Of a stretch of 64,000 nucleotides of DNA, positions 49,456 through 52,266 are shown piece after piece (positions within the stretch are counted from its first letter, which is position 1; every line of letters begins with the position of its first letter). The position numbers and the translations under genes were made by a program. The notes below the pieces were generated by a model. It was not told where the DNA came from, did not search any database, and saw only the letters and a program-made list of their open reading frames with translations. The stretch spans positions 1-64,000 of the forward strand of contig ONRC01000003.1 in the NCBI GenBank assembly GCA_900320085.1, in the 5' to 3' direction. The DNA comes from an uncultured Eubacteriales bacterium. GTDB taxonomy: Bacteria; Bacillota; Clostridia; Christensenellales; Aristaeellaceae.

Positions 49456-51480
49456 TCAGCCGATTTCCGCGCCAGCGGGCATGATGGGGTCAGCCGTCAG
49501 GAGGCGGAGGGTTTCGGTGCCGTCATCGTTTTTCGCCACGGAGGACAGCAGCATGCCCTGACTTTCGATACCCATGATCTTGCGGGGGGCCAGGTTGGCC
49601 AGCAGGATCAGGTTCTTGCCAATCAGGTCTTCGGGGTTATGGAACTTGGCGATGCCGGACAGCACGGTGCGTTCCTCGTCGCCCAGGCTCAGGCGGAATT
49701 TCAGCAGCTTTTCGCTCTTTTCCACCCGTTCGCATGCCAGCACCCGGGCGACCCGCAGCTTCACCTTTTCAAAATCGTCGAACGCGATGCAGCCTTCGGG
49801 GATTTCCTGCTTCTTCTTTTCCTTCTTTTCGGCCTTCTGCTCTTTCTTTTCCTGCTTGGCTTCGGCCTTTGCCGCCTTCTTTTCTTCCTTCTCGTCGGGG
49901 TTCAGAGCTTCCAGTTCCTTCTTGATGTCGATGCGGGGGAACAGGGCTTCGCCCTTGCAGACCTTGATCCCGGCGGGCAGCTTGCCGAAGGAATCCAGGG
50001 ATTCCCAGGATTTCAGCGCTTCGTCGGAAACGCCCAGCTGCTCGAAGATCCGGTCGGGGGTGGCGGGCATGAAGGGACGGATCAGCACGGCCACGAACCG
50101 CACGCATTCCGCCAGAGTCAGCAGCACGTTGGCCAGCCGGTCCTTCTTTGCTTCGTCCTTGCCCAGCACCCAGGGCTGGGTCAGGTCGATATACTTGTTG
50201 CATTCGCCGATGACCTTCCAGATTTCCGCCAGCGCCTGGGAGTATTGCAGCTTGTTCATCTGCTCCTCCACCATCCCGGGCAGGGCGGCGCAGTGCTCTT
50301 TAAGGGGCGCGTCCACTTCATTGTCCACCGCGTCCGTCCAAGCGGGCAGGACGCCATCGAAGTACTTTTCGATCATGGCCACGGTGCGGCTGACCAGGTT
50401 GCCCAGGTCGTTGGCCAGGTCGGCGTTCATGCGGGTGAGGAAGGCTTCGTTGGTGTAGTTGCCGTCCGCGCCGAAGGGCATTTCGCGCAGCAGGTAATAG
50501 CGCAGGGCGTCGGCGCCATAGCGGGCCACGATGGGCTGGGGATAGACCACGTTGCCCTTGGACTTGCTCATCTTGTCGTTGCCGAACAGCAGCCAGCCGT
50601 GAGCGAACACCTGCTTGGGCAGGGGCAGACCCAGAGCGTGGAGCATGATGGGCCAATAGATGGTGTGGAAACGGACGATTTCCTTGCCCACCAGGTGCAC
50701 GTCGGCGGGCCAGTATTTTTTGAACAGCTCGTCGTGGTCGGTGCCGTAGCCCAGGGCGGTGATGTAATTGGACAGGGCGTCGATCCACACGTACACCACG
50801 TGCTTATCGTCAAAGTCCACCGGCACGCCCCACTTGAAGCTGGTGCGGCTGACGCACAGATCCTGCAGGCCGGGCTTCAAGAAATTGTTCAGCATTTCGT
50901 TGGCGCGCTTGGCGGGCTGGATGAAATCGGGATGGGTTTCGATGTAGTCGATCAGCCAATCCTGATACTTGCTCATGCGGAAGAAATAGCTTTCCTCCTG
51001 CATGGCTTCCACGGGGCGGCCGCAGTCCGGGCAGCACTTGACGCCGTCCTTTTCCACCACCTGGGTGGGGGTCCAGAAGGATTCGCAGGGGGTGCAGTAC
51101 AGGCCTTCGTAGGCGCTCTTGTAGATGTCGCCCTGCTCGTAGAACTGGCGGAAGATTTTCTGCACGATCTTTTCGTGCCGCTCCTGGGTGGTGCGGATGA
51201 AATCGTCGTACTCGATTTCCATCAGCTTCCACAGTTCCTTGGTATTTGCCACGATCTCGTCTACATACGCCTGGGGGGTCACGCCCTTTTCGGCGGCCTT
51301 GCGCTCGATCTTCTGGCCGTGCTCGTCGGTGCCGGTGAGGAAGTAGGCGTCGTAGCCGGTCAGGCGCTTGAAGCGGGTCATGGCGTCGGCGGCCACGGTG
51401 GTGTAAGTGTGGCCGATGTGCATGTTGCCCGAGGGGTAGTAGATGGGGGTGGTGATGTAGTAGGTCTTTTTCTGGTCCAT
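49456..51480 (-). CDS. metG: Methionyl-tRNA synthetase
   Basis: A 674-residue class I synthetase charging tRNA-Met. HIGH signature at 21-24 (GNMHIGHTYTT), zinc-binding Cys pairs in LYCTPCESF and CCPDCGRP (type with one zinc knuckle set), KMSKSKGNVV near 300. A Lys/Glu-rich linker (about 535-585) leads to a C-terminal EMAP/Arc1p-like tRNA-binding domain (about 580-674: ARVLACERVEKSEKLLKFRLSLG). ATG with AAAGGAGTGA upstream. Its ~570-nt leader holds a T-box riboswitch, an R3 insertion and an R5 repeat. Confidence 0.97.
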   Translation of the reverse strand: MDQKKTYYITTPIYYPSGNMHIGHTYTTVAADAMTRFKRLTGYDAYFLTGTDEHGQKIERKAAEKGVTPQAYVDEIVANTKELWKLMEIEYDDFIRTTQERHEKIVQKIFRQFYEQGDIYKSAYEGLYCTPCESFWTPTQVVEKDGVKCCPDCGRPVEAMQEESYFFRMSKYQDWLIDYIETHPDFIQPAKRANEMLNNFLKPGLQDLCVSRTSFKWGVPVDFDDKHVVYVWIDALSNYITALGYGTDHDELFKKYWPADVHLVGKEIVRFHTIYWPIMLHALGLPLPKQVFAHGWLLFGNDKMSKSKGNVVYPQPIVARYGADALRYYLLREMPFGADGNYTNEAFLTRMNADLANDLGNLVSRTVAMIEKYFDGVLPAWTDAVDNEVDAPLKEHCAALPGMVEEQMNKLQYSQALAEIWKVIGECNKYIDLTQPWVLGKDEAKKDRLANVLLTLAECVRFVAVLIRPFMPATPDRIFEQLGVSDEALKSWESLDSFGKLPAGIKVCKGEALFPRIDIKKELEALNPDEKEEKKAAKAEAKQEKKEQKAEKKEKKKQEIPEGCIAFDDFEKVKLRVARVLACERVEKSEKLLKFRLSLGDEERTVLSGIAKFHNPEDLIGKNLILLANLAPRKIMGIESQGMLLSSVAKNDDGTETLRLLTADPIMPAGAEIG

Positions 51481-51506: not shown

Positions 51507-51622
51507 ACGGAGAGTTCAGAGAACAGAGTGCAGAGTTCAGATGATATGGTTTATCCACAGCATAGCTTTGTGATGTTGCTGTCTCATCTGTACTCTGTAC
51601 ACTGAACACTGTACGCTCTTTT
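51507..51622. repeat. AGAGTTCAGAGAACAG palindromic repeat (R5) in the metG leader
   Basis: A left arm of iterated GAGTTCAGAGAACAGAGTGC (from 51512) and a right arm ATCTGTACTCTGTACACTGA with following GTACGCTC (to about 51617). Lies between the T-box terminator and the metG start codon, so it is transcribed only when the T-box reads through. Confidence 0.65.
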
Positions 51623-51637: not shown

Positions 51638-51674
51638 GAAAAACGCCCCCGCATCGGTGTTCGATGCAGGGGCG
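51638..51674 (-). terminator. T-box-controlled intrinsic terminator of metG
   Basis: Minus strand: CGCCCCTGCATCG (51674-51662), loop, CGATGCGGGGGCG (51656-51644), then five U. Its 5' arm follows the T-box sequence within ~10 nt, as expected for the mutually exclusive antiterminator. Confidence 0.9.
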
Positions 51675-51742
51675 TAAATGCTTACGCGGTACCACCCTGG
51701 TTTTACGCGTTTCTTTGGCTTCGTGTTTTTCAATGAAGAAGG

Positions 51743-51847
51743 CACCTCATCAGTCAGGCTTCGCCTGACAGCTTCCCCTCAAGGGGAAGCCTTTTTTGCC
51801 TTCCCCTTGAGGGGAAGGTGGCCCGCGTCAGCGTGTCGGATGAGGTG
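51743..51847. repeat. R3 palindromic repeat inserted within the metG T-box leader
   Basis: Closed by CACCTCATC (51743-51751) / GATGAGGTG (51839-51847). Contains three inner hairpins: AGTCAGGC/GCCTGACA (51752-51770), GCTTCCCC/GGGGAAGC (51771-51790) and CCTTCCCC/GGGGAAGG (51799-51818). Confidence 0.8.
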
Positions 51848-52058
51848 ATTTAACAATCATCATTGGGCGACATTTATATGCGGTAGAAACGCGCCTTCAT
51901 TCAGCGGATATCGGCGCTGCCCGGCGCGGGCTGAACGTGCTTGCCCGCGCATGCTCCGGGGCCATGTTCCCGCGCATCCCGCCGCCGCCTTTCACCTTGC
52001 GCGGCTCTCTTTGGGCGTTCTGACGCGGTACTCTTCCCTTCCTCGCATATATGGTTCT

Positions 52059-52087
52059 ATCTTAATGAATAAAACCCGGTTTGTCAA
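52059..52087 (-). promoter_or_regulatory. metG promoter
   Basis: Minus strand: perfect TTGACA (52082-52087), 17-bp spacer, TAAGAT (52059-52064). Start of the T-box leader about 7 nt downstream. Confidence 0.82.
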
Positions 52088-52162
52088 GCGGTTTATTCAT
52101 AGAAGCAGAGGAAAACGAAAGCTGAAATATATGTTTCCTCTTTCGCCTTTCTCGGAAGGGGT

Positions 52163-52242
52163 CTGGGGGAGCCGCCTTCCCCTCGCAGGGGAAGGTGGCG
52201 CGAAGCGCCGGATGAGGTGATCCAAAGAGCGGTTCCCCCCAG
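52163..52242. repeat. R3 repeat inside a GGGGGA..TCCCCC outer hairpin, downstream of queT
   Basis: Outer arms CTGGGGGAGCCG (from 52163) and CGGTTCCCCCCAG (to 52242) enclose CCTTCCCCTCGCAGGGGAAGG and a GGCGCGAAGCGCC hairpin with GGATGAGGTGA. Probably also works as the queT transcription end. Confidence 0.7.
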
Positions 52243-52266
52243 CAATGTATTCATCAGCTTTTCGTA

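Follow-up and report, generated by a model that had tools for sequence, protein, structure and literature searches.

A dispersed palindromic repeat within the Stem III loop of a methionine-specific T-box leader

The role of Stem III in T-box riboswitches was long unclear (PMC6197855). This stem is part of the aminoacylation discriminator, in which the flanking purines are conserved and the stem and loop are variable (PMC7583486), and the purine motif around it reads 5'-RRRNG-Stem III-AA-3' (PMC7778990). A review reports Stem III insertions mainly in translational T-boxes, and insertions without known function in every domain (PMC7583486). The metG leader described here resembles T-boxes whose Stem III or helix A2 carries insertions (PMC7583486) in that its insertion lies in the discriminator region and the core is retained. 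In contrast to those insertions, which are described as lineage-specific and frequent in translational T-boxes, the metG leader is transcriptional and its insert is a mobile-type repeat. A partial literature collection yielded no papers that trace T-box Stem III insertions to mobile repeats or note their recurrence. In the reading that we consider likely, the insert, called R3, is a tolerated insertion of a dispersed, palindromic, MITE-like repeat at the Stem III tip of a Met-specific transcriptional T-box that would still sense tRNA-Met.

The window, the whole stretch of DNA that was analysed, comprises 64,000 nucleotides from an uncultured Eubacteriales bacterium of the rumen. The earlier note had recognised a T-box in the metG leader, with its motif at 51698-51685, and the present analysis agrees, adding that the leader is read on the minus strand throughout. 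Its parts and the neighbouring repeats are as follows.

49456..51480, minus strand: metG, methionyl-tRNA synthetase (674 aa), the regulated gene (open reading frame)
51510..51618: R5, an imperfect inverted repeat beyond the T-box, in the gap from terminator to start codon
51643..51675, minus strand: intrinsic terminator with a 14-pair stem and then TTTTC
51665..51698, minus strand: antiterminator with T-box bulge (AGGGUGGUACCGCG...ACGCCCCU), from covariance-model alignment and pair probabilities
51698-51685, minus strand: T-box motif AGGGTGGTACCGCG
51665..52052, minus strand: T-box leader (RF00230) with Met specifier AUG in GAACAUGG, a full-length covariance match
51703..51894, minus strand: Stem III, its loop enlarged, bounded by the basal arms GCGCGUUUC / GAAACGCGU, from covariance-model alignment, pair probabilities and covariation
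51743..51847, minus strand: R3, inside the Stem III loop, from repeat analysis and folding
52059..52087, minus strand: promoter TTGACA-17-TAAGAT, directly 5' of the T-box (10/12 matches)
52146..52243: palindrome of the type called E2, with an R3-type half unit replacing part of one arm, 5' of the promoter

The leader matches RF00230 over the entire model (82.6 bits, E 2.8e-18, model positions 1-219 of 219). The gathering score of this family is 93, so the leader is missed by a default Rfam scan; such a score is normal in this genome, since just one of its 15 T-boxes exceeds the gathering score and 14 fall below it. The likeness to a classic transcriptional long-Stem-I T-box extends to the Stem I motifs, the AUG specifier, Stem II, Stem III between GAAGG and AA, a UGGU bulge, an antiterminator/terminator pair and an aminoacyl-tRNA synthetase gene downstream. 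With a promoter in front and metG adjoining, the T-box parts are complete. Apart from TTGACA-17-TAAGAT the region has no promoter-like site (shuffle mean 0.3), the specifier loop GAAC-AUG-GCC carries an AUG that fits the downstream gene, and a UGGN T-box bulge is present within the competing antiterminator/terminator pair. The purine motif is present as GAAGG before and AA (UAAAA) after Stem III, as in insert-free relatives. The leader differs from an RF00230 T-box in its Stem III loop, which is larger by about 165 nt, 105 of them belonging to the dispersed repeat. Spans are ordinary, at 201-261 nt, for the other 14 T-box matches of the genome.

R3 lies within the leader before the antiterminator, as had been proposed, but its insertion point is not a linker between the 5' domain and the antiterminator; it is the Stem III loop. 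The covariance model leaves 168 nt, including R3, unaligned in apical Stem III, and the arms GCGCGUUUC/GAAACGCGU are fully paired around the insert (9/9 positions). R3 occupies the middle of the loop, flanked by about 40 nt on its 5' side and 30 nt on its 3' side of additional sequence, which is not R3 and is also missing from insert-free leaders. Two refutation tests put forward with the original proposal have been run. T-box covariance alignment places R3 within Stem III, yet not as normal Stem III, which in close relatives is a short hairpin, and comparison of relatives' metG leaders found R3 to be common to none of those examined. R3 is an element on the Stem III tip and not normal Stem III. 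On direct reading, CAAUGA and UCAUUG in the flanks (window 51848-51885 and 51713-51742) pair across R3. The 3' flank of R3 resembles that in the leaders L002 and L003, and these features suggest an older extension of Stem III.

The 105-nt palindrome noticed earlier at 51743-51847, closed by CACCTCATC/GATGAGGTG, is confirmed as R3 and consists of two inverted units of 45-50 nt whose heads point outward in the window copy. In each unit a small hairpin lies between a CACCTCATCMG head and a CTTCCCCTYRAGGGGAAG tail. Copy numbers are pattern-based counts: the head pattern has 84 matches in the 2.9-Mb genome, against 0 for the reversed control pattern. It is also common in two close relatives (68 and 29 matches); in other members of the genus it is scarcer, rare or missing. 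R3 also has 105 blast matches. The paired R3-type copies that were read in its own genome mostly have their heads facing each other over a spacer of about 25-52 nt. Most copies (L205-L244) are composites of about 215 bp in which the spacer sequence is often conserved, and the outward-facing window copy is unusual among them. Nesting of R3 and E2 like that at window 52146-52243 occurs elsewhere in the genome (L160, L166, L209).

R3 shares with MITE/REP/BIME-type repeats its short length, palindromic form, high copy number, paired units and lack of evident coding capacity, and has the terminal inverted repeats (CACCTCATC/GATGAGGTG) and high copy number of a MITE. It differs from them in having no RAYT match in its own genome and no named family found. 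Direct reading revealed no evident target-site duplication at the window copy. A search for RAYT (Y1 transposase, PF01797) in the 91%-complete genome gave 0 matches, so a REP/RAYT origin of R3 is unsupported. A strict R3 pattern had 0 matches in 291 genomes of the class, a pattern that also missed R3's own genome and is thus no guide to how widely R3 has spread. Among titles and abstracts searched for the repeat sequence, no paper evidently describes R3.

The metG gene is 82-97% identical throughout the genus, and the named relatives carrying it are rumen Christensenellaceae/Clostridia MAGs. Twenty-five metG leaders of the genus could be read over the whole stretch between specifier and T-box. 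Stem III is bare in 16 of them, and the 9 that have inserts carry them always in the Stem III loop. The distance from GAAGG to the T-box is 27-39 nt in bare leaders versus 200 nt in the window. The most frequent of these inserts is E2, a palindrome of the form GTTTTCTGGGGGAAACC...GGTTTCCCCCAGACCCCC, found in metG Stem III of six leaders (L002, L007, L010, L013, L017, L193); its half-site has 126 matches in the genome of the window. A third repeat family, E3 (AAAGTGGAAA...TTTCACTTT), occupies metG Stem III of L027 and has 71 matches in that leader's genome. L021 has an unclassified hairpin, about 50 nt long; the contigs of L003 and L025 end within or beside such inserts. Well-supported branches of the metG protein tree force at least 3 changes in the E2 label, in keeping with recurrent insertion at the same site. 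One close clade of this tree mixes R3, E2 and bare leaders, and no exact empty site from the same species is present among the leaders compared. The Stem III helix averages 8.5 bp in 8 insert carriers versus 7.4 in 17 insert-free leaders. It also covaries across 25 metG leaders, a set that includes L044 from outside the genus, omits L193 and counts L024 low because of misregistration by one base; the observed mean is 7.76 versus 4.96 in shuffles, and 0 of 2000 shuffles reached as high.

T-boxes were fully listed in 21 genomes (15 + 140 + 145, about 300), and matches spanning at least 273 nt were inspected, a threshold below which shorter inserts could be missed. Outside metG, repeats appeared only in two hisS leaders (L187, L200), both with E2 in the Stem III loop in opposite orientation. 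Altogether, 11 of the roughly 300 T-boxes contain repeat or hairpin inserts, and all repeat inserts found are in Stem III. If insertions fell at random over about 225 nt, with a loop offering at most about 15 nt, a rough estimate of the chance that 5 distinct element/gene combinations would all lie in the loop is p near 1e-6. This clustering mirrors survival among insertions and is no evidence of targeting. T-box spans of 273-314 nt beginning with AAAGGCGAUGACGAAG were rejected as inserts; they form one leader type recurring in many genomes (L185-L201), in which the Stem II loop and the linker behind it contain long additional stretches, and its scores lie far under the Rfam cut-off. L192 was likewise rejected as a Stem III insert, having a long Stem II loop instead. 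All insert-carrying leaders that were scored fall below the RF00230 gathering cut-off; because large inserts lower covariance scores, default scans under-report such T-boxes.

The idea that R3 folds on its own is supported by structure prediction. The metG-strand RNA of the repeat has a folding energy of -66.6 kcal/mol (z -10.0 versus shuffles), and no terminator-like site was found in it on that strand. Over the Stem III-to-antiterminator segment, predicted pairing is the same with or without R3, at 0.96-1.00 for Stem III and 0.83-0.95 for the antiterminator AGGG/CCCU pairs. For the whole leader with Stem III formed, thermodynamic predictions, made without tRNA, tertiary contacts or kinetics, give ON and OFF energies of -174.2 and -185.2 kcal/mol with R3 and -108.2 and -119.2 kcal/mol without it, a gap of -11.0 kcal/mol in both cases. 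Regulation of metG would probably be retained despite R3. The opposite (plus) strand of R3 has a terminator-like hairpin and T run at window 51771-51790.

Folding calculations also allow for a harmful R3. An alternative OFF structure lacking Stem III, with R3 ACGCGGGCCACC paired to the T-box strand, has an energy of -189.9 kcal/mol, 4.7 kcal/mol better than the OFF structure keeping Stem III, and this pairing occurs in the whole-leader MFE; the unpaired left part of R3 could in this way capture the T-box strand and bias the leader to termination. Such capture, however, needs Stem III and the R3 closing stem to open, both of which form earlier in transcription, so the whole-leader MFE that breaks Stem III was set aside as unlikely during transcription. 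The pairing is also unpopulated in the segment ending at the antiterminator, and the T-box core parts are all kept, with signs of decay absent. Damage to the switch is therefore quite improbable. A misjoin at the repeat during metagenomic assembly is very improbable. The genome is in 90 contigs and is probably a MAG like its named relatives, and the contigs of two genomes (G021 and G018) end at inserts in the same place. Against an artefact, the two sides of R3 pair 9/9 in Stem III and, on direct reading, again through CAAUGA/UCAUUG nearer R3, different inserts occupy this position in independently assembled relatives, and the remaining 14 T-box matches of the genome are of ordinary span.

Inserts at this position might instead be favoured, if hairpins in Stem III pause or delay RNA polymerase and so lengthen the time for tRNA binding before the terminator. 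Hairpin-forming inserts do recur in metG and hisS Stem III, and a pause of 30-60 s at Stem III is reported for glyQS (Grundy and Henkin 2004, as cited in PMC6197855). Their distribution nevertheless makes selection for pausing unlikely. The inserts are sporadic: for its 5 tips on the tree of metG proteins, E2 takes 5 changes, a count no better than that of shuffled labels. They are also unrelated in sequence and confined to 11 of about 300 T-boxes, a pattern that fits survivorship of random insertions. The broader proposal that the genus's Stem III tips have repeatedly captured mobile palindromes as kinetic modules, tuning tRNA sensing species by species, is likewise doubtful.

Tolerated insertion at a permissive tip is the simplest reading, because the core is intact, independent cases share the same site and the elements are unrelated. 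By this mechanism, R3 would have landed in the Stem III tip of the metG T-box and would fold on itself, pointing away from the discriminator core, and for these two reasons tRNA-Met sensing would persist. Stem III tips would be permissive, whereas insertions elsewhere in the leader would be removed by natural selection. The reported variability of the stem and loop between conserved purines (PMC7583486) fits tolerance at the tip. The earlier note had called the locus a natural test of insertion tolerance, and the case is stronger than proposed, since the same loop is filled by other repeats or hairpins in 8 related metG and 2 hisS leaders. At the Stem III tip, the leaders of close relatives have between 0 and about 200 additional nt; they form a natural test series that could reveal the part of Stem III that is important and any effect on sensing of the transcription distance from Stem I to the antiterminator. 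Mobile palindromes would also explain where some, at least, of the 'curious insertions' of T-boxes come from.

The second repeat noted before the metG start codon, R5, is indeed an imperfect inverted repeat located between the terminator and the ATG. Its 35-nt arms (51510-51544 / 51584-51618) are 77% complementary. The stretch from terminator to start codon (window 51510-51618) is a second landing place for inverted repeats in many relatives; examples upstream of metG occur in L003, L012, L014, L020, L022 and L023.
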